Below are positions 1-13,670 of a DNA stretch of 31,579 bases, in pieces. This DNA comes from a virus. The notes under the pieces were generated by a model. The model was given only the letters and a program-made list of their open reading frames with translations. It had not been told where the DNA came from and searched no databases. A program made the position numbers and the translations under genes. The stretch lies in the IMG/VR virus record IMGVR_UViG_3300022539_000471, positions 1-31,579 of that record; one strand, 5' to 3'. The stretch's first letter is position 1; each line of letters starts with the position of its first letter.

Positions 1-85
1 TACTCTTATCTAAGCAACGTACCTTCCCTCTAGGTATCCTTTTAGAGCTAGTAACCTCATCAGCAATCTTTTTTAAGCTATTCAT
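1..85 (-). CDS. Hypothetical protein, N-terminal fragment (cut by window edge)
   Basis: An ATG at 85-83 on the minus strand opens a frame without stop to base 1. It begins MNSLKKIADEV and continues for 28 residues, rich in Lys, Arg and Ser. An AGGAT sequence lies about 9 bases upstream, and a strong sigma70-like promoter (131-158, minus) points at it, which is the main reason to believe it. The fragment is too short to assign a family; the start 'KKIADEV' could belong to a small DNA-binding protein but nothing proves that. Confidence 0.55.
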   Translation of the reverse strand, partial: MNSLKKIADEVTSSKRIPRGKVRCLDKS

Positions 86-130
86 TCTACATCCTATAAA
101 CTACCTACGAGAGAATGGACTTTTAATTAC

Positions 131-158
131 ATTATACCACAGAATCACTAAAAGTCAA
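131..158 (-). promoter_or_regulatory. Sigma70-like promoter, leftward
   Basis: On the minus strand TTGACT (158-153) is followed after 16 bases by TATAAT (136-131). The same 16-base spacing is seen in the other two strong promoters of the window. It would drive the gene starting at base 85 with a leader of about 40 bases. Confidence 0.75.
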
Positions 159-170
159 TAGGTTTTCAGG

Positions 171-192
171 GATTGAAGCTCTCAGGGGAAGG
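171..192 (+). repeat. 22-base direct repeat, copy A
   Basis: GATTGAAGCTCTCAGGGGAA plus GG here matches 20 of 22 bases of the copy at 2153-2174. Copy A is upstream of the leftward promoter at 131-158; copy B is in the leader of the rightward early operon. Function unknown; a protein site or shared RNA leader element are possible. Confidence 0.6.
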
Positions 193-379
193 TAGGAAGC
201 TGAAAGCCGCTACCAGAGCGCATTACAGCAAAGACAGATTTTTTGGTCTAGGGAATAATGGAGTGCCAGAGATATATATTAGTCCCCCTGGGGGGTTTCG
301 CTTTCTCGGTGCTAGTATTAACACACAGAGAGATAACGCCATAGCTATAGCAAACAAAGTGCTAGGACAACTAAGCTAA
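173..379 (+). CDS. Questionable small ORF, 68 aa
   Basis: A TTG-initiated frame encodes 68 residues that I do not recognise, ending NKVLGQLS. It starts inside the 22-base repeat, has no convincing ribosome binding site and no promoter in its direction. Against chance, the second half (EIYISPPGGF onward) has a plausible composition. Its neighbours to left and right are both leftward genes, so it would be an isolated gene. I list it mainly because bases 86-616 otherwise hold only regulatory and structured elements. Confidence 0.25.
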   Translation: MKLSGEGRKLKAATRAHYSKDRFFGLGNNGVPEIYISPPGGFRFLGASINTQRDNAIAIANKVLGQLS

Positions 380-465
380 GGGCTTGGTTTGTAGTGGGAA
401 AAGTTAATTTAATGGCCTAGGGGAAGAGGAGATGTCTGACATATACCTACCCCCTTAGTGGTGAA

Positions 466-515
466 CAATTCCCTATCTGATCCTAGCTGATCTATACCTA
501 AAAGATCAGGAATTG
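466..515. other. Bipartite inverted repeat in the 380-616 gap
   Basis: CAATTCC (466-472) and CTGATC (477-482) are mirrored by GATCAG (504-509) and GGAATTG (509-515), giving a two-part stem with a 4-base bulge and a loop of about 21 bases. It lies beyond the terminator at 558-592, so it would be read only by readthrough of the leftward genes or from the plus strand. The rest of 380-616 shows no gene. Confidence 0.45.
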
Positions 516-557
516 AGCTATTCCAACACTAGTACCAAAAATGCTTTTTCATATTAT

Positions 558-592
558 AAAAAAAAGAGGATCAGAGTTTTACCCCTGATCCC
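558..592 (-). terminator. Intrinsic terminator of the leftward operon
   Basis: On the minus strand the stem GGATCAG (591-585) / CTGATCC (574-568) is followed by TC and a run of eight T (565-558). It sits just past the stop codon of the gene at 617-913, closing the operon 1410-617. Confidence 0.88.
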
Positions 593-616
593 CTTAGTCT
601 TCCCTGGTCTTAGAGA

Positions 617-913
617 TTATAATTCTATCCCTAATTCTTCCTGAACCCTCTTCATCAAGCTAGGGTCATCAAGCAGTTTAGACGCTAAGTCCTTTAGCTT
701 TTTGCGCTTCATTCTAGCTTCCCCGCCCTTCAGTGCTACCCTCTCAGCGTTGCAAGCGTCTGTTACTGTGCATCTGACATACTTTGTATATACCTTCTCC
801 TCTCCCTCTACCTTGATAGCTTCCTTCAGGTTAGACGCTATATCTACCCTGATCTCCACTTCTCTGTCAACACCTTCCACTTTCGCTTTGACTACTTTAT
901 CTAGCTTAATCAT
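617..913 (-). CDS. Hypothetical early protein, 98 aa
   Basis: The protein is strongly charged: an N-terminal stretch that looks like beta-strand (IKLDKVVKAKVEGV, EIRVDIASNL), then a Lys/Arg-rich segment (RMKRKKLKDLASKL) and an acidic helical end. GGGGGTGA lies about 5 bases before the ATG. It is the last gene of a three-gene leftward operon (1410 to 617) driven by the promoter at 1505-1532 and closed by the terminator at 558-592. I recognise no domain. Location next to the origin-like region makes an early regulatory or host-interaction role possible, but that is only inference from position. Confidence 0.75.
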   Translation of the reverse strand: MIKLDKVVKAKVEGVDREVEIRVDIASNLKEAIKVEGEEKVYTKYVRCTVTDACNAERVALKGGEARMKRKKLKDLASKLLDDPSLMKRVQEELGIEL

Positions 914-952
914 TAGTTATCACCCCCTTTCTTTTATAGGATATTGGTTGAT

Positions 953-1219
953 CTACTTACTCTCTGCTAATTTATGAATTAACGGTTTGTAGTATGCTAT
1001 TATTATTCTGTTCCATTTATCCTTATCGAGTATCTTCCCTTCCCTGATATAATAGTGTCTAGTCCTACCATTAGCACTTTCTTTATATAAATCACAGTAT
1101 CCTATTTCTTCCCCTATACCATAGGCGGATGTAGCTTTCTGGTATGCTTTAGCTAGTAGTATGCGTAGTATTAGCTTTAGCTTTCTCTCTTGCTTTCTTT
1201 GCCATGCTTTCTTGTTCAT
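953..1219 (-). CDS. Hypothetical basic early protein, 88 aa
   Basis: The N-terminal 30 residues are very basic (MNKKAWQRKQERKLKLILR), followed by a mixed region with YCDLYKES and RTRHYYIREG, then a hydrophobic/aromatic end. The ATG overlaps the stop of the upstream gene as TAATG, implying translational coupling. The basic start would suit nucleic acid binding, but no family is recognisable. Confidence 0.68.
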   Translation of the reverse strand: MNKKAWQRKQERKLKLILRILLAKAYQKATSAYGIGEEIGYCDLYKESANGRTRHYYIREGKILDKDKWNRIIIAYYKPLIHKLAESK

Positions 1220-1410
1220 TAGCTTACCCCCTTCGTTACTCTGTGTAATGCGGATAACATAATTGCCTGGTCTATTCCATTAGTTAGTCTGGGTATGTAT
1301 ACCTGTGTTTTATAACATATTCTATCTCTTACTAAAATTTCCCATAGCTGATACAATTCACAGCTATTCTTTAACCGTTTTATCTCTTCTCGTATGTCCA
1401 TATTATCCAT
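1219..1410 (-). CDS. Hypothetical early protein, 63 aa
   Basis: First gene of the leftward operon; GGGGGTAAGG precedes the ATG, and the promoter at 1505-1532 lies about 95 bases upstream. The protein is predicted helical with mixed charge (MDNMDIREEIKRLKNS start). A second in-frame ATG at codon 4 is possible. No family recognised. Confidence 0.65.
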   Translation of the reverse strand: MDNMDIREEIKRLKNSCELYQLWEILVRDRICYKTQVYIPRLTNGIDQAIMLSALHRVTKGVS

Positions 1411-1504
1411 ACCTTACCCCCTTTTTGTTGCTAGTAGGTAGTCCTATCTGCACGTCAAGATAAGACTATTTTCCTACTGCTTTATTTATCAAATAACTAT
1501 TCTT

Positions 1505-1532
1505 ATTATATACTAATTTTTCAAGTTGTCAA
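1505..1532 (-). promoter_or_regulatory. Strong sigma70-like promoter, leftward
   Basis: On the minus strand TTGACA (1532-1527) and TATAAT (1510-1505) are perfect consensus boxes separated by 16 bases. It matches the rightward promoter at 2022-2049 in the bases AGGGGTTGACAA, so the pair forms divergent early promoters. One TACTAAT repeat (1511-1517) lies in the spacer, so a protein binding these repeats could repress it. Confidence 0.88.
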
Positions 1533-1555
1533 CCCCTAGCATACAAACGAGATAC

Positions 1556-1964
<409 letters not shown>

Positions 1965-2021
1965 TGAATCCCGTATCCCTTGCCAGGAGCGGGTTATAGA
2001 ATTAGTGGTCTTTTTTAGGGG

Positions 2022-2049
2022 TTGACAAAGCTAATTTTTCGTCTATAAT
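2022..2049 (+). promoter_or_regulatory. Strong sigma70-like promoter, rightward early
   Basis: TTGACA (2022-2027) and TATAAT (2044-2049), both perfect, are spaced by 16 bases. Transcription would start near 2056, giving a leader of about 165 bases before the first gene at 2220, with the palindrome at 2086-2103 and the 22-base repeat copy B inside it. Confidence 0.88.
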
Positions 2050-2075
2050 ATAGACATATAAAGAGTTTACGTTCA

Positions 2076-2103
2076 TTGACAAATTGCTATATTAAAATAT
2101 AGC
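2076..2103 (+). promoter_or_regulatory. Second rightward promoter with overlapping palindrome
   Basis: TTGACA (2076-2081) is followed after 16 bases by TATAGC (2098-2103). GCTATATT (2086-2093), AA, AATATAGC (2096-2103) form a perfect palindrome with 8-base arms that covers the -10 box, as operators often do. A weaker inverted pair TATAGT (2113-2118) / ACTATA (2125-2130) follows. The promoter is a weaker match than 2022-2049. Confidence 0.6.
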
Positions 2104-2152
2104 ATACAAGATATAGTAGGTATAACTATAGCTATGTAAAAACATGCAGTAA

Positions 2153-2174
2153 GATTAAAGCTCTCAGGGGATGG
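2153..2174 (+). repeat. 22-base direct repeat, copy B
   Basis: GATTAAAGCTCTCAGGGGAT plus GG matches copy A at 171-192 at 20 of 22 positions. Here it lies in the untranslated leader of the early operon, about 45 bases before the first start codon. Confidence 0.6.
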
Positions 2175-2219
2175 AGGGCAGTCTTTGCTGTATTAGAATA
2201 AGAGGGAGGTGAAAGTAAC

Positions 2220-2408
2220 ATGGGCAAAGCTATGATACTAGCCAAAGAAACAGGCTTACCAGCGTATGTTGGTGATGGAGACATGGTATGTAATAAATGT
2301 GGAGAACTTTGGGATGTCTATGGGATCGGCCACGGAGATATGACCGCAAAAGAGAGGGATGTATTTCTAGCAGGTGACGGTTGTCCCTGCTGTAGAGAGG
2401 GAGGGTAA
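2220..2408 (+). CDS. Small zinc-ribbon protein, 62 aa
   Basis: Two cysteine pairs, CNKC near residues 24-27 and CPCC near 56-59, are spaced as in small zinc ribbons. GGGAGGTG lies 8 bases before the ATG. It is the first gene of the rightward early operon. Zinc binding follows from the cysteine pattern; no partner or specific role can be read. Confidence 0.75.
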   Translation: MGKAMILAKETGLPAYVGDGDMVCNKCGELWDVYGIGHGDMTAKERDVFLAGDGCPCCREGG

Positions 2409-2411
2409 GCT

Positions 2412-2597
2412 ATGCATAAAGTATTACAGGATGCTATAATCAAGTGTAGAATCCGCAAAGTTCACACAATCAGCCCATGGGAACAGACAGCGATGGATGC
2501 GTATTGCGCCTGCTGTCCATTAGGTGCAGAATGTGCTAACTATGAGCTTGGTGAGCAAGATACATTACACCATAAAAAGAAGGAGGAGAAAGCATGA
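2412..2597 (+). CDS. Small cysteine-rich early protein, 61 aa
   Basis: Cys12 and a cluster CACCPLGAEC in the second half suggest metal binding. The end is a charged tail HHKKKEEKA. It starts 3 bases after the previous stop and overlaps the next ATG as ATGA. Family unknown. Confidence 0.65.
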   Translation: MHKVLQDAIIKCRIRKVHTISPWEQTAMDAYCACCPLGAECANYELGEQDTLHHKKKEEKA

Positions 2598-3013
2598 CTA
2601 GAGAGCAACAAGAGGAGGTAGTAAGTATCATTCACGGGAAAGGAGGACGGCTTGAGAAGGTAGGTTGTTGGTCTACAGTTGTAGCAGTTAAAGGATGTAA
2701 AGTCCTCTACACGCATGAGATTAAGAAAATACTCAGCCTGTGAGCGAACATATATTTTCATGATGTAGAGATGATGATAAGTAATTGGCAAGCAGATCTA
2801 CCACCAAAGCCTGAGGTACAGGTGATAAAGATTAAGTCATTTAGTCCAGAAGAGCCTAACCTAGAGTTACGGCTTGACAGAGGAAATGACCATAGCCACG
2901 TTGAGCTGTGGAATAATGGGCAGATGTTGGGATATATGCACATAGATACTAGAAAAATACAGTGGTGCTCAAATGGCCCAGCTCAATGGATTAAACTAAG
3001 TGAGGATTGCTAA
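2594..3013 (+). pseudogene. Early gene interrupted by one in-frame TGA; paralogue of 3113-3520
   Basis: From ATG 2594 the frame is open to 3013 except for TGA at 2741-2743 (codon 50). Reading past it gives 138 further or remaining codons in the same register with no shift. Both halves match the intact protein at 3113-3520: MTREQ at the start, IYF-D then ISNW around residues 53-65, then DHSHVELW against DHDDVEIW, and MHI before the end. It may be a decayed copy, two proteins (49 aa, then from an ATG at 2771 or 2774), or a gene expressed by UGA readthrough. No ribosome site is evident before 2771. TGA is used normally as stop elsewhere, so the genetic code is not changed. Confidence 0.75.
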
Positions 3014-3029
3014 TTCATTCACAAAACCT

Positions 3030-3051
3030 GAGCCCTCCCCCACGAGGGCTC
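3030..3051. terminator. GC-rich hairpin, terminator-like without clear U tract
   Basis: GAGCCCTC (3030-3037) and GAGGGCTC (3044-3051) form a perfect 8-bp stem with loop CCCCAC, just after the stop of the interrupted gene. There is no T run downstream on the plus strand; on the minus strand only TTTTG follows. It may attenuate transcription or protect mRNA 3' ends. Confidence 0.55.
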
Positions 3052-3073
3052 ACGCTATCTTAGAGGATTACTA

Positions 3074-3090
3074 TATTCAAAAATTGAATA
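3074..3090 (+). promoter_or_regulatory. Palindromic element, copy 1 (TTCAAAAATTGAA)
   Basis: TATTCAA, AAA, TTGAATA is an inverted repeat with 7-base arms, 23 bases before the ATG at 3113 and directly upstream of its AAGGAGG. One of five copies in the window. Operator, promoter or RNA-level control are all possible. Confidence 0.72.
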
Positions 3091-3112
3091 AGCTAAGGAG
3101 GTGAGGAGAACC

Positions 3113-3520
3113 ATGACTAGAGAGCAAGCTAGAGAGATACTGAAGATGCTTGACAGAGGAGGGAAGATTGATAAGGATGGATACATCACTGGATGCCCTG
3201 TTTGGACTTCAACGATAGACCGCATACGTAAGGTAAATGGACTGATCTACTTTGATGACATTCAGGGAAAAATGCAGATAAGCAACTGGCCTGAGGATTT
3301 GGATGAGGAGGTAAAGGTAGTAATGAAGTTTAGGGGATTCGATGGAGAGGATATGGAGCTTAGAGTTACAGAGGAAAAGATAATGGATAAGGAGGCAGAC
3401 CACGACGATGTTGAAATTTGGAAAGAGGGGAAATGTATAGCCATGATGCACATTGAGGAAAAGATAATGTTTGTATGGCCTGAAAAGGCAGGACGTAAAA
3501 CCGTGCATCTTAAAGATTAG
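3113..3520 (+). CDS. Hypothetical early protein, 135 aa, intact paralogue of 2594-3013
   Basis: I place the start at ATG 3113 because AAGGAGG ends 11 bases upstream and the first residues MTREQ then match the paralogue; an in-frame GTG at 3101 overlaps that ribosome site. The protein has a short helical start, IYFDDIQGK and ISNW in the middle, and a DHDDVEIW...MHIEEK end that looks like alternating strands. No known domain is recognisable. It follows the first palindromic element, so it may begin a separately controlled segment of the early operon. Confidence 0.75.
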   Translation: MTREQAREILKMLDRGGKIDKDGYITGCPVWTSTIDRIRKVNGLIYFDDIQGKMQISNWPEDLDEEVKVVMKFRGFDGEDMELRVTEEKIMDKEADHDDVEIWKEGKCIAMMHIEEKIMFVWPEKAGRKTVHLKD

Positions 3521-3529
3521 GAGAAGCTC

Positions 3530-3781
3530 ATGAAGAAGCATAAGCTAGTAGAGCTCCTTGAGAAGCAAGCACAATTAGCGAAGCAACGTCATGCACCGTT
3601 AAGGGTAGAGCTTAGTAATGAAGAAAAGCTAAAGCTCGACATAATCAACCTTGAGAGACGTTTGGATGCATTGACTGAAGCCTGCGCTGTGTTAGCTAAT
3701 TGGGTTATAATGGCAGAGGGAGAGCAGTTGATGATGATTGATAAAGATGGCGGTGTGAACTTTAAGAGGCTTAGGTTATGA
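3530..3781 (+). CDS. Hypothetical coiled-coil protein, 83 aa
   Basis: Residues 1-60 are helical and charged with heptad-like leucines (VELLEKQAQLAKQ, LDIINLERRLDALTEA), so a short coiled coil is likely. The end is GGVNFKRLRL. The ATG follows AGGAGAAG, and the stop overlaps the next ATG as ATGA. Function unknown. Confidence 0.7.
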   Translation: MKKHKLVELLEKQAQLAKQRHAPLRVELSNEEKLKLDIINLERRLDALTEACAVLANWVIMAEGEQLMMIDKDGGVNFKRLRL

Positions 3782-3945
3782 GCTACGTGCATTCTATAAA
3801 AGAGTATGAAGTGAGGCTCATAGTTAGATATAGTCCTTATTTTCATAAGCCATCTATGGGTAGATTAGAGGCACGGCTGATGGATGAGATACCTTCGTGG
3901 GATATGGATATTGTGAGTATGGAAATTAGGGGGATGAGGAGATGA
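3778..3945 (+). CDS. Hypothetical protein, 55 aa
   Basis: A short frame beginning MSYVHSIKEYEVRLIVRY and ending SMEIRGMRR. It is held between neighbours by ATGA overlaps at both ends (3778 and 3942), which is the pattern of real genes in this operon and the main support for it. No motif recognised. Confidence 0.6.
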   Translation: MSYVHSIKEYEVRLIVRYSPYFHKPSMGRLEARLMDEIPSWDMDIVSMEIRGMRR

Positions 3946-4112
3946 GAGTGCATATCTATAAGGGTGGTATAATTCCAGAAGGAGACTATCCAGCCCGCAT
4001 CACAGATGTCATCCGTGTAAGACAAAGACTTGAGATTAAGTTCAGGATTACTGAGGGAAAGCATGCAGGCTGCTCTTTTACAACTTCAACTAGAGGGAGG
4101 TTTAGAAGATGA
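3942..4112 (+). CDS. Small protein resembling a truncated DUF669-type fold, 56 aa
   Basis: The segment IPEGDYPARITDV followed by LEIKFRITEGKHAGCSF resembles the N-terminal half of the protein at 7500-7871 (IPTAQYLCRITKAEQ, then EVAEGEHEGRVLFF). That family (DUF669) is phage-associated and often sits by recombination genes. This copy stops after the first half, so it could be a shortened paralogue or an independent small beta protein. ATGA overlaps join it to both neighbours. Confidence 0.6.
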   Translation: MRVHIYKGGIIPEGDYPARITDVIRVRQRLEIKFRITEGKHAGCSFTTSTRGRFRR

Positions 4113-4462
4113 AACAAGGTGATATAGTAGGTAAGGAGAAAGAACCCTGGTTAGGTAAGGTTACATGGGTAGATGAGGAAGCAGGACAATGTGGAGTAGT
4201 TTACACGAGTCCTACTGACTACCAGGGTGGAGCTAACATATTTAAGATCGACGAACTAAAGATCGTAGGCAGGGCTACAGCTGAGGAGATGGAGGATATA
4301 AATGAGCTGAGCATTGAAGAGCTCAGGGCTGAGGTTAGATCATTGAGAAACCAAAAGCGTAGGCCAGCAGGCATTAGGAAACAGAAGAGTAGGAAGCAAC
4401 TGCTTGCTGATAAGCTGAAGGGATTGACAACTGAGCAGATTGAGAAGTTGATGGAGGGGTAG
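4109..4462 (+). CDS. Hypothetical protein with SH3-like start and basic helical end, 117 aa
   Basis: Residues 1-55 (GDIVGKEKEPWLGKVTWVDEE, then CGVVY and FKIDELKIVG) look like a small beta barrel of the SH3 or KOW kind. Residues 60-85 are acidic and helical, and 83-100 are basic (NQKRRPAGIRKQKSRKQ), followed by a terminal helix. The basic patch could bind nucleic acid. Domain calls are by appearance only. GGGAGG precedes the ATG. Confidence 0.7.
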   Translation: MKQGDIVGKEKEPWLGKVTWVDEEAGQCGVVYTSPTDYQGGANIFKIDELKIVGRATAEEMEDINELSIEELRAEVRSLRNQKRRPAGIRKQKSRKQLLADKLKGLTTEQIEKLMEG

Positions 4463-4463
4463 G

Positions 4464-4652
4464 ATGAGTACGAGTTATTACTTAGTCTATGATTTTGGTG
4501 ATAAAGATGTAGAGGGTCTCCCTAAAATCACAGAGGTTAACGAAAAGAAGATCTTTGAGATATTAGATCGTGCACACGCAAATGATGATGATGCCGCAAT
4601 GAAGAAGATAGCAGTCTATAAACTAGGGAACTGTCTTATCGACTGGAGTTAA
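4464..4652 (+). CDS. Hypothetical acidic protein, 62 aa
   Basis: Starts one base after the previous stop with GGAGGGGT upstream. MSTSYYLVYDFGD, then a helical acidic middle (HANDDDAAMKK) and NCLIDWS at the end. No family recognised. Confidence 0.65.
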   Translation: MSTSYYLVYDFGDKDVEGLPKITEVNEKKIFEILDRAHANDDDAAMKKIAVYKLGNCLIDWS

Positions 4653-4654
4653 TC

Positions 4655-4771
4655 ATGCCCATATGGCTAATGAACATTGCAGCTAAAGCGGTTCAGGGTG
4701 TGCTGGTATTATGGGTAGGGATTTATGGGTTGGTATGTTTGTATTGTGCATGGAGGAATAGAAAGCATTAG
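4655..4771 (+). CDS. Tiny single-span membrane protein, 38 aa
   Basis: From ATG 4655 the frame encodes 38 residues: a hydrophobic span (about residues 12-31, VQGVLVLWVGIYGLVCLYCA) ending in a basic tail WRNRKH. This fits a small inner-membrane protein with the tail in the cytoplasm. No strong ribosome site is seen, so translation may be coupled to the preceding gene, whose stop is 2 bases away. Its TAG stop falls in the conserved CATTAGCA that precedes the palindromic element. Confidence 0.55.
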   Translation: MPIWLMNIAAKAVQGVLVLWVGIYGLVCLYCAWRNRKH

Positions 4772-4774
4772 CAT

Positions 4775-4789
4775 ATTCAAAAATTGAAT
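4775..4789 (+). promoter_or_regulatory. Palindromic element, copy 2
   Basis: ATTCAAAAATTGAAT lies 18 bases before the GTG at 4807 and just upstream of its GAGGAGG. It is preceded by CATTAGCA (4766-4773), which also precedes copies 3 and 4, and followed by TTAGT. Confidence 0.72.
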
Positions 4790-4806
4790 TTAGTGAGGAG
4801 GAGAAA

Positions 4807-5037
4807 GTGAAGATTACAGAAGGAAAGGCAACATACAGGACAATCACAATCGAGTTGGAGACAAGAGAGGAAGCACTGTTGGTGTCCCATCTCGTGAACA
4901 ATGCTCCAGGCATACCTCTAGTAGATTACTGCGAGCAGCGTGGGGTTGATGAGGAGAAGCTGTTCACACTCACCCATGAAATATATGCGGAGCTTGATGA
5001 CTTAGGTATTAACACTTGTTGTACTAAGGATTGCTAG
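4807..5037 (+). CDS. Hypothetical protein of a local paralogous family, 76 aa
   Basis: Starts at GTG behind GAGGAGGAGAA. The N-terminal pattern YRTITIELETREEALLVSHL recurs in the proteins at 6385-6558 (PVMIKLETPEELRCLESAL) and 6559-6777 (KVTIELEGEKELGCLDYLL), so these look like products of gene duplication within the operon. The end carries ELDDLGINTCC. Function unknown. Confidence 0.7.
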   Translation: MKITEGKATYRTITIELETREEALLVSHLVNNAPGIPLVDYCEQRGVDEEKLFTLTHEIYAELDDLGINTCCTKDC

Positions 5038-5051
5038 AAAAAGAGGCAAAT

Positions 5052-5978
5052 ATGGCTGATAGACCACTCATTCTAGATTATACCACCCTAAGCACCTTCT
5101 TAACATGTCGTAAGAAGCACTACTGGAGGAATGTTAGGAATCTTGTTGCCGTCGACGGTGCGGTTAGCTTAGCATTTGGTCACTCAACACATGGAGGGTG
5201 GGCAGTGTTTTATAAAGGGGAGGGAGATAAGGCTACGCTTAAGGCATTTGCATGTGAGTACAAAGACTTCCCTGTACCTGAGGGGGATAAGAGAACACTG
5301 AAGCGTGGGATGGAGTGCCTCGAGGATTATACGAAGAGGTATCAGCATAACCCATTTAAGGTAATCAATGTTGAGGTTAGCCATCAGGTTAAGATACATC
5401 CGCTGCTCACCTACGCTGCTAGGATGGATTTGATAATCAAATGGGAGGGAAGGATTTACGTAATGGAGCACAAGACTGCGAGTAAGCTAGGCTCGTACTT
5501 CTTTGATGCCTTTAAGCTGAACCATCAAGTCGATGGTTATTTCTTTGCTTGCATGGATAAGTATGGAGAATGTCATGGAGTATGGATTGACGCTATGCTC
5601 ATAGCAAAGACTAAGTTTAACTGTCTGAGGGATATTGTAGGGAGAGGGCCGAAGCATAAGGAAGAGTTCATCGAGGAGCTACTTGATATTGAGAAGAATA
5701 TGCGATGGGCTGAGAAGGAGCAGAGCTATCCGCTTGATAAAGGGAGCTGTGATTACTACGGTGCCTGTGTTTATAAAGACTTATGTTATTACAGGCATGA
5801 CAAGAAGATACTCAAACGCGTTATCGAAACAAGGTATACTGAGAGTGTTTGGGATGCAGCTAAAGGTAGGGAGGTAAAGGATGAATCAAAACATAAAAAG
5901 GAGTCTAGAACTGATGCACAATCGACCATTGAATCGAAAGGAAGCACGAAGCTTACTCCGCCGCATATGTCCGTGTAA
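5052..5978 (+). CDS. PD-(D/E)XK nuclease, RecB/Cas4-like, with probable Fe-S cluster, 308 aa
   Basis: The protein opens with a hydrophobic strand and a Cys-Arg motif (LTCRKKHYW, Cys19), has LAFGHSTHGG, then RMDLIIKWEGRIYVMEHKTA, which holds the catalytic Asp and Glu-x-Lys of the PD-(D/E)XK fold, then NHQVDGYFFA, the Gln motif. Near the end CDYYGACVYKDLC adds three cysteines; with Cys19 this is the layout of a 4Fe-4S cluster in Cas4 and AddB nucleases. Such phage enzymes process DNA ends in recombination. I chose ATG 5052 (AAAGAGG upstream) over TTG 5031. The last 30 or so residues are Lys/Ser-rich and overlap the next gene by 98 bases. Confidence 0.87.
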   Translation: MADRPLILDYTTLSTFLTCRKKHYWRNVRNLVAVDGAVSLAFGHSTHGGWAVFYKGEGDKATLKAFACEYKDFPVPEGDKRTLKRGMECLEDYTKRYQHNPFKVINVEVSHQVKIHPLLTYAARMDLIIKWEGRIYVMEHKTASKLGSYFFDAFKLNHQVDGYFFACMDKYGECHGVWIDAMLIAKTKFNCLRDIVGRGPKHKEEFIEELLDIEKNMRWAEKEQSYPLDKGSCDYYGACVYKDLCYYRHDKKILKRVIETRYTESVWDAAKGREVKDESKHKKESRTDAQSTIESKGSTKLTPPHMSV

Positions 5979-6183
5979 GAGTGGAAAGCTTTATAAGAAT
6001 TGCTGTCTTGAGGATGACATACGCAGGATGGTTAAGAAGCAGGCGTGGATACTGAAGGAGAAGAAGAGAGGGGAGATTAAGATTACTTCTGGTTATAGAA
6101 CAGCAGAGCAGAATAAAAACGTAGGAGAAGCACCTAAATCAATTCACTTGAAGGAGAGGCGCAATGAGAAAGATATGGGTTGA
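5881..6183 (+). CDS. SEC-C motif protein with a C-terminal M15-peptidase relic, 100 aa
   Basis: Residues 29-42 (RICPCKSGKLYKNCC) form a SEC-C zinc motif, known from the SecA tail and many small proteins. Residues 66-93 (IKITSGYRTAEQNKNVGEAP then SIHL) closely match the substrate site of the M15 peptidase at 9160-9627 (VVITSGYRTPAHNEKVGGAA then SFHM) but stop before the catalytic Asp and the second His. A peptidase function is excluded by what is missing. GGGAGG precedes the ATG, which lies inside the end of the nuclease gene. A recombination scar is the likeliest origin. Confidence 0.75.
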   Translation: MNQNIKRSLELMHNRPLNRKEARSLLRRICPCKSGKLYKNCCLEDDIRRMVKKQAWILKEKKRGEIKITSGYRTAEQNKNVGEAPKSIHLKERRNEKDMG

Positions 6184-6394
6184 GCGTGCTGAGGTAGAGC
6201 GATACATTGTACGTGATGCTGAAGAAGCCAAAGATTTATATATGGATGAGGATAGAGGCGTCAAGATTGGTGAGGCAGAGTACGATGAACTAATGCAGAT
6301 GAGAAAGGTTTATCATCGCTTTCAGCAGGAGCTAGAAAGATTATGGGTTAAGGAACGAAAACATCTATATGAAGGAGGCGAGTTATGCAGGTAA
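6164..6394 (+). CDS. Hypothetical charged helical protein, 76 aa
   Basis: GGAGAGG precedes the ATG, and the gene overlaps the previous one by 20 bases and the next by 10. The protein is rich in Glu, Arg and Lys and almost wholly helical (EYDELMQMRKVYHRFQQELE). No motif recognised. Confidence 0.65.
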   Translation: MRKIWVERAEVERYIVRDAEEAKDLYMDEDRGVKIGEAEYDELMQMRKVYHRFQQELERLWVKERKHLYEGGELCR

Positions 6395-6558
6395 CAAGGG
6401 AGAAGGTATGGACACCAGTGATGATTAAGCTGGAAACACCCGAGGAACTGAGATGTCTAGAGAGTGCTTTGTACTGTGCTATAACAAGCATTGGCAGTTG
6501 TAGTTCTACTTGGCACAGATTTGCTTATGAGTTTCTCCATGAACTAAGGAGGGAGTAA
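6385..6558 (+). CDS. Hypothetical protein of the local paralogous family, 57 aa
   Basis: ATG 6385 follows GAAGGAGG by 6 bases and the frame ends at TAA 6556-6558, directly before the next ATG. Residues 10-30 (TPVMIKLETPEELRCLESAL) match the family pattern of 4807-5037 and 6559-6777. The second half has no match to the paralogues. Function unknown. Confidence 0.65.
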   Translation: MQVTREKVWTPVMIKLETPEELRCLESALYCAITSIGSCSSTWHRFAYEFLHELRRE

Positions 6559-6777
6559 ATGAAAGTAAGTCAAGTAAGGAAGATCATTAAAGTTACCATC
6601 GAGCTGGAGGGTGAGAAGGAGCTTGGGTGTTTGGACTATCTGTTGTTTTGTGATGTTCAACCATACGGAAGTAGCATTCGTACAAGAGTGCTCGAGCATG
6701 ATGGCTTAAGTTATGATGCTGATATTAGGCCTTTCCAGTCCAAACTAAGGGAACTACTGAGGGAGAATGACTGTTGA
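6559..6777 (+). CDS. Hypothetical protein of the local paralogous family, 72 aa
   Basis: Starts immediately after the previous stop, with AAGGAGGGAG upstream. KVTIELEGEKELGCLDYLLF matches the shared N-terminal pattern. The stop overlaps the next TTG start as TTGA. Tandem with 6385-6558, so a local duplication is likely. Confidence 0.68.
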   Translation: MKVSQVRKIIKVTIELEGEKELGCLDYLLFCDVQPYGSSIRTRVLEHDGLSYDADIRPFQSKLRELLRENDC

Positions 6778-7496
6778 GAAATACAAAAGATCTAGCGCTA
6801 GACCTGGATAAGCTAAAGCTACACATCCTAGTCTATGGCATCAGCGGAACAGGTAAAACTACATTCGCAGGTACATTCCCTAAACCTTATTTCTTTGATT
6901 TTGATAGGGGAATGCTTAGCCTGCGAGGGCAAGATATATCATACGAGACATATCTCGATGAGGATTTGACTAGACCTGATGCCTACCGTAGATTTCTGGA
7001 GCAGATGCATAGGTTTAAGAAAAGTCTAAATGGGTTTGAGACTATTGTTGTTGATAGCTTAACTACGCTGAGCGAGAGTATGATGTATCACATTCAATTT
7101 CTTAATGGTACGATAACGAAGCAACCCACACTGCAAGACTGGGGAATGGGTGTAGCTAAGCTGAGGGATTTGTTTCATGAGATCATGGCATTTGATTGCC
7201 ATACTATAGTTACTGCACATGAGGAGATGATAAAGGATGAGCTAAGCGGAGAGATTGTAAATCGACCTCTAGTAATCGGACAGAAGCTACCGCCAAGGAT
7301 TCCACTCTGGTTCGATGAGATATACAGGGCTCAGGTTGGGAGGGATAAGAATAGGAACCCTGTATATCAGTTGCTCACTACAGCTATGCGCAGATATACG
7401 GCTAAGAGTAGGATGAACGGGAAGCTTAAATGCTTCGAGGAACTGGAAGTTCCTGATTACAAGAGCTTGATGAAGAAGATTAAAGGAGGTGAGTAA
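6774..7496 (+). CDS. RecA-like AAA ATPase (AAA_24 / Sak4 type), 240 aa
   Basis: Walker A is GISGTGKT (residues 22-29). Walker B is IVVDS (91-95) after a hydrophobic strand. FFDFDRGM after the P-loop and VTAHEE further on fit the AAA_24 family, which includes phage Sak4 single-strand annealing ATPases. The size (240 aa) is normal. Likely role is recombination or annealing with the nuclease upstream and the DUF669-type protein downstream, which often accompanies it. The start is TTG 6774, overlapping the previous stop, with GAGGGAG about 9 bases before. Confidence 0.85.
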   Translation: MRNTKDLALDLDKLKLHILVYGISGTGKTTFAGTFPKPYFFDFDRGMLSLRGQDISYETYLDEDLTRPDAYRRFLEQMHRFKKSLNGFETIVVDSLTTLSESMMYHIQFLNGTITKQPTLQDWGMGVAKLRDLFHEIMAFDCHTIVTAHEEMIKDELSGEIVNRPLVIGQKLPPRIPLWFDEIYRAQVGRDKNRNPVYQLLTTAMRRYTAKSRMNGKLKCFEELEVPDYKSLMKKIKGGE

Positions 7497-7499
7497 AGC

Positions 7500-7871
7500 A
7501 TGAGTAAGATTAATGTAAACCTGGACGAGGTTGACGAGTTCGAGCCTATACCAACCGCACAGTACCTATGTAGAATTACAAAAGCAGAGCAGGTTAAGGC
7601 AAGTACGGGAGCTGATATGATTTCTTGCGAGGCTGAGGTAGCCGAGGGTGAGCACGAAGGGAGGGTGCTCTTTTTTAATACCATGCTCAAGACGAAAAAA
7701 GGGAAGGTTAATTACTACCTCAGAAGGCTCATAGAGGCTCTCGGTGTGGAATGGACAGCTAAGGGATTCAACACGGAAGATATGATGGGAGCAGAGTTCA
7801 TAGCGAATGTAGAACCACCTGATCCTGGACAGAGATTTAATAAGGTGACTGATTATCTGCCACCTAGTTAG
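7500..7871 (+). CDS. DUF669-type phage protein, probable ssDNA-binding partner, 123 aa
   Basis: Begins SKINVNLDEVDEFEPIPTAQ and contains VAEGEHEGRVLFFNTML and VNYYLRRLIEALGV, the pattern of the DUF669 family. These proteins lie beside Sak4-like ATPases in many phages and are thought to act like single-strand binding proteins; that role is by family and context, not shown in the sequence. AAAGGAGGTGAG precedes the ATG. Last protein gene before the first structured RNA. Confidence 0.78.
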   Translation: MSKINVNLDEVDEFEPIPTAQYLCRITKAEQVKASTGADMISCEAEVAEGEHEGRVLFFNTMLKTKKGKVNYYLRRLIEALGVEWTAKGFNTEDMMGAEFIANVEPPDPGQRFNKVTDYLPPS

Positions 7872-7877
7872 TAATTT

Positions 7878-8016
7878 ATCCGCTCTGGAGTACCTTTGAG
7901 TACTCGGTAATGGTCGTTAAGACCGAGGTCTCTGTCGCCAGGATAGGCATAAGCCGAGTTATTCTGGGAGGGTTGAGACGTGGTGCAGGGGATGGGGATA
8001 ACCTGCCAGAGCGGAT
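7878..8016 (+). ncRNA. Structured RNA candidate, member 1
   Basis: A closing stem of 10-11 bp (ATCCGCTCTGG 7878-7888 with CCAGAGCGGAT 8006-8016) encloses several hairpins: GAGTAC/GTACTC (7888-7893, 7900-7905), GGTC/GACC (7912-7915, 7921-7924), GTCTC/GAGAC (7928-7932, 7975-7979) enclosing CCAGGATA/TATTCTGG (7938-7945, 7960-7967) and GGC/GCC, then GCAGG/CCTGC (7985-7989, 8002-8006). It fills the gap between two genes. The closing stem, the CGTTAAGA loop and the ATGGGGA loop recur in the RNA at 10811-10956, with two compensatory pair changes. I match it to no known RNA class. Confidence 0.72.
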
Positions 8017-8073
8017 CGCAATTATAATATTATAGGAAAAACATCCTGAAACTATAAAGCTTGGTGAAGAAAA

Positions 8074-8460
8074 ATGATTATTGATAAAAAAGTTATATGT
8101 TTCCTGTTAGCAATTGCTGCGGTGCTTGTATTTACTTTCACACTAGCGGATTGCATGAGTGAGATAGATCATTCTAAAGCTCCCTGGCTGCGACGAACTG
8201 ATAAAGATCTAATAACTCAACTGCGAATGGAAATAAATGGCCTTAGTTATGCTCTGAGCACAATGGCTATTAACAATAGATATTTAAGAGGGCTTATTTA
8301 CACTACAAAGCCAGATCATTGGACAACGTGGATTGAGCTTTTGGATGAATGTAAAAGGCTTGAAGGAATAATTAAGGCAAAGAATGAAAGGATTAGAATA
8401 CTAGAGAAGCAACTGGGCATTCGACAATGGCAAACGCCAGCACCATATCGGAAGATATAA
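8074..8460 (+). CDS. Signal-anchored coiled-coil protein, possible inner-membrane spanin, 128 aa
   Basis: Residues 7-25 form a hydrophobic span (VICFLLAIAAVLVFTFTLA) after a Lys-containing start, followed by a mostly helical periplasmic-type part whose end (ECKRLEGIIKAKNERIRILEKQ) looks like a coiled coil. That topology and length suit an i-spanin, and it lies upstream of the M15 peptidase. No o-spanin lipobox partner was found, so a general membrane protein is equally possible. The ribosome site is weak (TGGTGAAG). Confidence 0.65.
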   Translation: MIIDKKVICFLLAIAAVLVFTFTLADCMSEIDHSKAPWLRRTDKDLITQLRMEINGLSYALSTMAINNRYLRGLIYTTKPDHWTTWIELLDECKRLEGIIKAKNERIRILEKQLGIRQWQTPAPYRKI

Positions 8461-8478
8461 GAATCTTTGGAGGAATAA

Positions 8479-8694
8479 ATGGGCATCTATAGTGAATGGG
8501 ATGAGTTCTGTAAGATGGCTAAAGAGAGTGCTGGAACAGCAGGTTCAAGCTTGCCTGCTCCTGCTCGCTGGCAGGATAGCATACTATCATACCTTGACGC
8601 AGTTAAGATATTCGTTGAGGTTTGTTTTCTCATACTCTTATATCTATGGAACTTTTACCTATGGCTAGATGTGGTTTTGTTATGGATAAAATAA
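8479..8694 (+). CDS. Small membrane protein, holin candidate, 71 aa
   Basis: GGAGGAA precedes the ATG. A soluble, Ser/Ala/Pro-containing N-terminal half is followed by one long hydrophobic segment at residues 43-70 (VKIFVEVCFLILLYLWNFYL and on). One span near the C terminus with a position just before the endolysin would suit a holin-like role. No family recognised. Confidence 0.65.
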   Translation: MGIYSEWDEFCKMAKESAGTAGSSLPAPARWQDSILSYLDAVKIFVEVCFLILLYLWNFYLWLDVVLLWIK

Positions 8695-9054: not shown

Positions 9055-9160
9055 ATACTGTGGATCAGAGGCAACTATGGATAATAAGTTCTATGTTATA
9101 GACTGTTGCAAGAGATGCCACGACGCAGGGGAAGATAGCACTGATAATGAGAATGATTGA
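9044..9160 (+). CDS. Tiny zinc-finger protein, 38 aa
   Basis: CKYC (residues 3-6) and CCKRCH (21-26) give a four-cysteine site with a possible His. GAGGAGG lies 7 bases before the ATG. The TGA overlaps the start of the peptidase gene by one base (TGATG). Confidence 0.65.
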   Translation: MTCKYCGSEATMDNKFYVIDCCKRCHDAGEDSTDNEND

Positions 9161-9627
9161 TGCACCCATCACCCATTACAATCTCCGCACTGATTACAGC
9201 TATACTCTTTGGGAGTTTGTACATGCCACAGATAAAAGAGCGTTTCCATAGGCGCATTAACAATGTATGGATCGGTTCGTACTATCGTCTTTATGAACTT
9301 GAGTCTCCTGATACTAAAGAAGTTAAGGTCGATCCAAAGCTCATAGCATGCTTAGATAAACTACAGAGGGAGAGTGAGAGTAGAGTTGTTATTACCTCTG
9401 GCTACAGAACTCCAGCACATAACGAGAAGGTCGGGGGAGCAGCTAGGTCATTCCACATGAAAGGTATGGCTGTTGATTGCTACCAGGTTGGATGTAAGAA
9501 TAAGAAAGGATTGCTCGCCTTAGCTAAAAGAGGACTCAAATGTGGATTTACCACAGCGATTATTTATAAGGGTCATGTTCACTTTGATGTTCGTTATGAT
9601 GGATTAGGATTAAGATATGCAAAGTAA
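9160..9627 (+). CDS. M15-family peptidase, probable endolysin with N-terminal membrane anchor, 155 aa
   Basis: The core has the M15_3 pattern: SGYRTPAHN, then SFHMKGMAVD (first zinc His and Asp) and GHVHFDVR (second zinc His). All catalytic elements are present. These enzymes cut D-Ala-containing peptidoglycan peptides. Residues 5-25 are hydrophobic (ITISALITAILFGSLYM) and probably act as a signal anchor. I take ATG 9160, coupled to the previous stop (TGATG). An extra TTG one codon upstream is the only alternative. Sits among small membrane proteins, as in a lysis group. Confidence 0.87.
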   Translation: MHPSPITISALITAILFGSLYMPQIKERFHRRINNVWIGSYYRLYELESPDTKEVKVDPKLIACLDKLQRESESRVVITSGYRTPAHNEKVGGAARSFHMKGMAVDCYQVGCKNKKGLLALAKRGLKCGFTTAIIYKGHVHFDVRYDGLGLRYAK

Positions 9628-12248: not shown

Positions 12249-12520
12249 TAGCCCTCATAAAACAAGCTAGGTATTTCAAGAAGGGTGATACTACGGCTAA
12301 GTCATTCAGGTTTAGATTCGCAAGTAAATGGAAAGTTGTACATCCTAAAGCGAGGGATAATCTTTATATGCTGTTTGATTTGGATGGGCGTTTTATTGGT
12401 ACTGTTACAGAGGAGGTCTTAATAAAAGCGAGGGAGAGCTATGAAGCTAGCAATAAGCAAGATCAAAGTAAAGGATCAGGTAAGAAAAGAATTCGGCGAC
12501 GTAGAGGGACTGGCAAGTAG
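12245..12520 (+). CDS. Hypothetical basic protein, 91 aa
   Basis: A KOW or SH3-like beta region (WKVVHPKARDNLYMLFDLDG) is followed by a very basic tail ending GKKRIRRRRGTGK. That tail is encoded in the stretch that overlaps the ParB-methyltransferase gene by 80 bases, so part of its composition may be forced by the other frame. Nucleic acid binding is plausible. GGGAAGGGAG precedes the ATG. Confidence 0.62.
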   Translation: MIALIKQARYFKKGDTTAKSFRFRFASKWKVVHPKARDNLYMLFDLDGRFIGTVTEEVLIKARESYEASNKQDQSKGSGKKRIRRRRGTGK

Positions 12521-13670
12521 TATTAAGAAGTTCGGTCTACTGCATCCATTAACAGTCGATGATAACGATGAGCTAGTTGCTGGAGAACGGAGGTTAAGGG
12601 CTTGCAAGCTCCTCAATTTCAAAGAGGTAGAGGTTAAGTATAAACGTGATCTATCCCCTCTAGAGAAAACTGAACTCCAGCTAGAAGAGAACCTCATGCG
12701 CAAAGACCTCACCTGGGTGGAAGAGGTCAAGGGTAAGTGGCTTATTGATGTAATCAAGAGAGGGCTATATGGAAGTGCAGTCAAAGGTAAGGCTGGTGGA
12801 TGGGGAGTTAAGGATACTGCAATGGCACTTGGTAAATCTGCTGGTAGTATCTCGACGGATATACAATTAGCTGAGGCCTTAAGGATGTACCCTGCACTAG
12901 CACTGGAGAAGAATAAATCAATTGCATTTAAGAAGCTTAAGAAGCTCCAGGAGGAGCCATTTTTAATTGAGATACATAAGCGCATGCTAAAGACTGAGCC
13001 TGTGGAGAATGTTATATTAGGTGATGCTCGTGTTATTATACCTACTATAAAGAAGAAGGTTCATCTTATAGTAGCGGACCCTCCCTGGGGTATTGAGGTA
13101 GAGAAATCACACGGGCTTGGGAAGATGAGCGGTGCAACTCCCTTCAGGGATGATAAAGAAAGTTGTCAGCAATTAGCGAAGGATGTTTACCCTCTCTTGT
13201 ATAACGTGCTCGAGGATGACACACACGCCTATATATTCTTTGCAATCACGCAACGAGATTTCCACGTGGAGGCACTTACAAATGCTGGTTTTTGGGTTGA
13301 TCCTATTCCTATCGTATGGCCAAAGGAAGCAGCCTCTGCCCCAGGAGTTTATACTAGATGGACTAATTCATATGAGACTGTGCTATTCTGCAAGAAGGGG
13401 AATAGGAAGTTAAATAGCTCACCGAGGAATGTGTTGGATTATAAAAGGGTCTCTCCGAAGGATAAGATACATGATACAGAGAAACCTGTGCCACTCATTA
13501 AGAAACTTATTACTGTTTCAACACTACCTGGTGAGTGTGTGCTAGATCCATTTGGAGGGAGTGGATCAACGTTAGAGGCAGCCGTTCAGCTTAAGAGGGA
13601 TGTTATTATCATTGAGAAGGAGAAGAAGTATTATCATAATATATGTGAGAGGGCGAGGCAGTTGAAATGA
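12441..13670 (+). CDS. ParB-like domain fused to DNA methyltransferase, 409 aa
   Basis: Residues 1-95 are a ParB/Srx-type domain with GLASSIKKFGLLHPLTV and the box GERRLRA. From about 190 a methyltransferase follows: ADPPWG (motif IV, near 212-217) precedes VLDPFGGSGSTLEAA (motif I, near 370), the order of the beta class of N6-adenine/N4-cytosine enzymes. Such fusions are common in phages and may protect DNA from restriction or mark it for other uses. Target sequence unknown. GGGAGAG precedes the ATG. The stop overlaps the next ATG as ATGA. Confidence 0.88.
   Translation: MKLAISKIKVKDQVRKEFGDVEGLASSIKKFGLLHPLTVDDNDELVAGERRLRACKLLNFKEVEVKYKRDLSPLEKTELQLEENLMRKDLTWVEEVKGKWLIDVIKRGLYGSAVKGKAGGWGVKDTAMALGKSAGSISTDIQLAEALRMYPALALEKNKSIAFKKLKKLQEEPFLIEIHKRMLKTEPVENVILGDARVIIPTIKKKVHLIVADPPWGIEVEKSHGLGKMSGATPFRDDKESCQQLAKDVYPLLYNVLEDDTHAYIFFAITQRDFHVEALTNAGFWVDPIPIVWPKEAASAPGVYTRWTNSYETVLFCKKGNRKLNSSPRNVLDYKRVSPKDKIHDTEKPVPLIKKLITVSTLPGECVLDPFGGSGSTLEAAVQLKRDVIIIEKEKKYYHNICERARQLK

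Follow-up and report, generated by a model that had tools for sequence, protein, structure and literature searches.

A small phage gene interrupted by an in-frame TGA in one contig and whole in a near-identical sister contig

The window analysed here is a whole virus record of the IMG/VR type, 31,579 bases in length. Judged by its gene content, which includes a Sak4-like protein, an exonuclease, a DNA polymerase, a primase/helicase, an endolysin and virion proteins, the virus is a tailed phage. A cluster of small open reading frames (ORFs) with good Shine-Dalgarno sequences runs rightward from a perfect sigma-70 consensus sequence, a candidate promoter for the cluster, and two of these ORFs, copy A and copy B, form a tandem pair of which copy A is interrupted by a stop codon. 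The coordinates of these features are collected in Table 1.

Table 1. Features of the tandem pair and its surroundings; positions are those of the window unless the sister contig (L003) is named.
Feature	Position	Strand	Remarks
Sigma-70 consensus promoter, TTGACA-16-TATAAT	2022-2049	+	Perfect match; consensus match only
Copy A, interrupted member of the pair	2594-3013	+	139 sense codons and one internal TGA; ATG 2594, open after the TGA up to TAA 3011-3013
In-frame TGA, codon 50 of copy A	2741-2743	+	Glycine codon in the sister contig
Three-T patch, 26 bp	2741-2766	+	Holds three of the six window/L003 differences, at 2741, 2764 and 2766; the window has T at each
Copy A, downstream half	2771-3013	+	Open from ATG 2771 or 2774; the window has no Shine-Dalgarno sequence here, the sister contig has AAGGAG
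Copy B, intact paralogue, 135 aa	3113-3520	+	ATG 3113, stop TAG 3518-3520; strong Shine-Dalgarno sequence aaggaggtgaggagaaccATG; the mechanical ORF 3101-3520 is copy B begun at an upstream GTG
Window/L003 mismatches	178, 239, 2741, 2764, 2766, 7643
Intact copy A in the sister contig	L003:4326-4742 plus stop codon

Several other elements lie near the pair. The AT-rich region from 1500 to 2050 separates divergent gene sets and contains 11 of the 33 ATTAGT/ACTAAT words found in the whole window, together with inverted repeats that are long but imperfect and an (AT)n tract; it has the appearance of a replication origin or of a control region that serves both directions. Copies A and B are separated by a 9-pair hairpin (GAGCCCTC/GAGGGCTC, 3029-3052) with a terminator score on the minus strand. 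In addition, the near-palindrome ATTCAAAAATTGAAT occurs in exactly two copies in the window (3075-3089 and 4775-4789), each 18-24 nt ahead of a gene's ribosome site or start (3113 and 4807, respectively). Nine matches are found when up to three mismatches are allowed, compared with 2.1 expected, which makes it a possible site for a regulator or a phage promoter.

Both halves of copy A are homologous to copy B. The upstream half (49 aa) aligns with a local BLOSUM62 score of 57 (shuffles: mean 24, sd 4.3) and the downstream half (89 aa) with a score of 123 (shuffles: mean 27, sd 4.7), and in neither case did any of 2000 shuffles reach the real score. When copy B is used as query against the record, copy A is found across the stop with an E value of 3.6e-16, 39% identity and '1 TGA' inside. 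These alignments confirm the first-pass annotation, which described a TGA at codon 50 of the frame 2594-3013 with homology to the intact neighbour on both sides and in the same register. The residues that it saw kept downstream of the stop are those common to the two copies. A compensated frameshift in copy A is ruled out, as both other frames on the strand are full of stops. At 37-39% identity, the pair would be the product of an old duplication. Over 126 aligned codons, the differences between the copies number 56, 46 and 79 at codon positions 1, 2 and 3, respectively, and this excess at third positions is what is expected of divergence between two coding genes.

A comparison of the window with a sister contig from IMG/VR, IMGVR_UViG_3300022538_000443 (L003), dates the interruption. 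L003 aligns with positions 1-8517 of the window without gaps over 8,517 bp, at 99.93% identity and with 6 mismatches. Copy B is identical in the two contigs, and the three patch positions are the only bases at which copy A differs. In L003, codon 50 encodes glycine and the frame is open over 139 aa, so that an intact allele of copy A, the counterpart expected of a pseudogene or null allele, is present in a close relative. Among the records found, the stop is private to the window's contig; since the same gene lacks it in a contig 99.93% identical, the stop is at most strain-deep. A DNA pattern allowing any base at the three variable sites, used to find a third haplotype, matched only L003. The first-pass annotation had offered very recent decay or regulated readthrough as explanations and had proposed a comparison with related phages and a check of the reads for sequencing error, in which a sense codon would count against its view. 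The comparison bears out the recency and tells against readthrough, the sense codon at codon 50 being read from a sister contig rather than from the window's own reads.

The three differences in copy A are closely grouped. The sister and window bases are G and T at 2741, A and T at 2764, and G and T at 2766. Under simulated even placement, three of six mismatches fall this close together with P = 4.5e-4, although the cluster was seen before P was computed. One of the changes is nonsense, one is Glu-to-Asp and one is Gly-to-Val. The window carries the derived state at the patch, as judged from the alignments, because the stop interrupts a frame that is homologous on both sides and because the glycine codon altered at 2765-2767 encodes glycine in copy B also (column G58/G52). 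A templated origin of the patch found no support within the window, where neither of the altered words CTGTGAGCG and CATGATGTAG has a second occurrence; the altered word GATGTAGAG is found at three other places, for which chance suffices with a 9-mer.

The explanation that we hold to be somewhat the better bet is that the stop came into the window's contig through an error of sequencing or assembly, for example at a low-quality read end at low coverage. The three Ts would then, we infer, be errors, whereas what is directly observed is the stop, the cluster of differences, the homology and the intact gene of L003; the actual phage would make the full 139-aa protein from copy A. Differences that are private to one contig and clustered are the mark of such an artefact, and with three of them, all T, an error is no less likely than real decay. 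In MiSeq data, G to T accounts for 40-45% of the errors at G and C to A for 58-61% of the errors at C, and errors increase toward read ends (Schirmer and others, PMC4381044). Two of the three patch changes are G to T (C to A when read from the opposite strand), a direction that is suggestive in that it fits the favoured MiSeq error, though the window's platform may not be MiSeq. The case resembles a single-base or local assembly error by which a viral contig from a metagenome acquires a spurious pseudogene, in its private interruption, its clustering and its agreement with a known sequencer bias. Against an artefact stands the fact that assemblers usually discard unsupported read ends. Furthermore, a real local mutation or microhaplotype in the phage population would give the same pattern, and the loss of one of two paralogues is biologically easy.

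A real and very recent loss of copy A is a serious competitor, to which we give rather less than an even chance. One strain would then carry a natural null allele of copy A, whose function would be covered by copy B or by nothing. The 49-aa fragment would be made, and translation of the downstream half would be inefficient, since the patch also takes away the purine-rich AAGGAG before ATG 2771/2774. The frame is otherwise undamaged and matches the intact sister, as it would in an allele of almost no age. Moreover, copy A is one of a pair and lies in a cluster of small early-type ORFs without named relatives, a setting typical of dispensable phage genes. In its intact allele in a contig of 99.93% identity and its adjoining paralogue, the case is like a null allele, recent and limited to a strain, of an early phage gene that can be dispensed with. 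Such an allele differs from the present one in that a single nonsense change is enough, whereas three changes are clustered here. Three changes in 26 bp, all to T, are unusual for ordinary mutation, and the rest of the overlap of about 8.5 kb holds only three differences against the patch's three. Whether by error or by recent loss, the stop at codon 50 is very probably not an inherited or functional feature, nor a feature of the phage as such.

A reading that credits both contigs is improbable. The two would be real alternative haplotypes of one phage population, of which one makes the full-length protein, perhaps together with an internally started C-terminal form, and the other makes the 49-aa N-terminal fragment only. 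If the haplotypes were real, a local patch of mutation would abolish both products of a small early gene in a single step. Very unlikely, too, is a division of copy A into one gene at 2594-2743 and another at 2771-3013, both having starts of their own. In-frame ATG codons do follow the stop at 2771 and 2774, and in L003 the AAGGAG directly upstream could allow translation to begin inside the gene. The sequence before these codons reads AAGGAGAG in L003 and ATGTAGAG in the window, however, and the window has the altered GATGTAGAG at the position of AAGGAG. The contig with the stop is therefore without the ribosome site, while the contig with the site is without the stop; copy B, furthermore, is one continuous gene.

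Regulated readthrough or recoding of the UGA, yielding the full-length protein and a 49-aa short form, we regard as the least credible reading of all, with next to nothing in its favour beyond the downstream residues kept in common with copy B, whose conservation needs no protection by readthrough in a gene that was whole a few substitutions ago. In L003, the sole relative found, the stop is not conserved and a glycine codon takes its place. TGA is not reassigned in this phage, as all 40 of the ORFs chosen as likely genes in the window are open under table 11 and 8 of the 40 end in TGA. The window has only two tRNAs, Thr(tgt) and Asp(gtc), neither of which reads UGA; they are also its only Rfam matches, and no Rfam recoding element lies at the stop. 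The 93 nt that begin immediately ahead of the stop have a fold little better than that of shuffled sequences (z -1.6, with 14 of 200 shuffles as good). What the locus shares with known UGA readthrough and selenocysteine insertion is an in-frame UGA within a frame homologous on both sides; it differs from them in having neither a tRNA-Sec nor an RNA element nor a conserved stop.

The collections searched hold no named relative of the pair, which makes it an orphan family. Pfam, PHROGs, NCBIfam and PADLOC give no match to a named family, and the PDB gives no significant match to a solved structure (best E 0.085, a value that no search of the other four surpasses). Searches with the intact copy, the downstream half and the pair alignment as queries found a relative in viral contigs only in L003, and none was found in genome contigs or, by tblastn, in phage and plasmid records. 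The pair also has no relative among the genes of a more distant phage (L007, 48% identity), which was found through its Sak4-like gene. For the intact copy, the predicted structure is of low quality (mean pLDDT 60.5, pTM 0.55), and a fold search with it gave no significant match; for both reasons, assignment of a function from the model was dropped. As a tentative guess from position, one that we would sooner doubt than rely on, the pair may encode accessory proteins that are expressed early and directed at the host or its defences.

The pair should be annotated in its intact form. In phage contigs from metagenomes, an in-frame stop can mimic decay or recoding where a sister contig carries a sense codon, and clustered private differences are a useful warning sign.

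Elsewhere in the window, the ORF at 5881-6183 joins a SEC-C-like cysteine motif (a weak match) to a 34-aa endolysin-like stretch, which is 44% identical to the phage's own endolysin (9157-9627, E 3e-8); it may include part of a duplicated lysin gene that has become fused. Small paralogues stand in tandem a second time at 6385-6558 and 6559-6777, with 36% identity over 42 aa (E 1.7e-6). Finally, the ORF at 12441-13670 holds a ParB-like N-terminal domain and a DNA methyltransferase domain in one frame.
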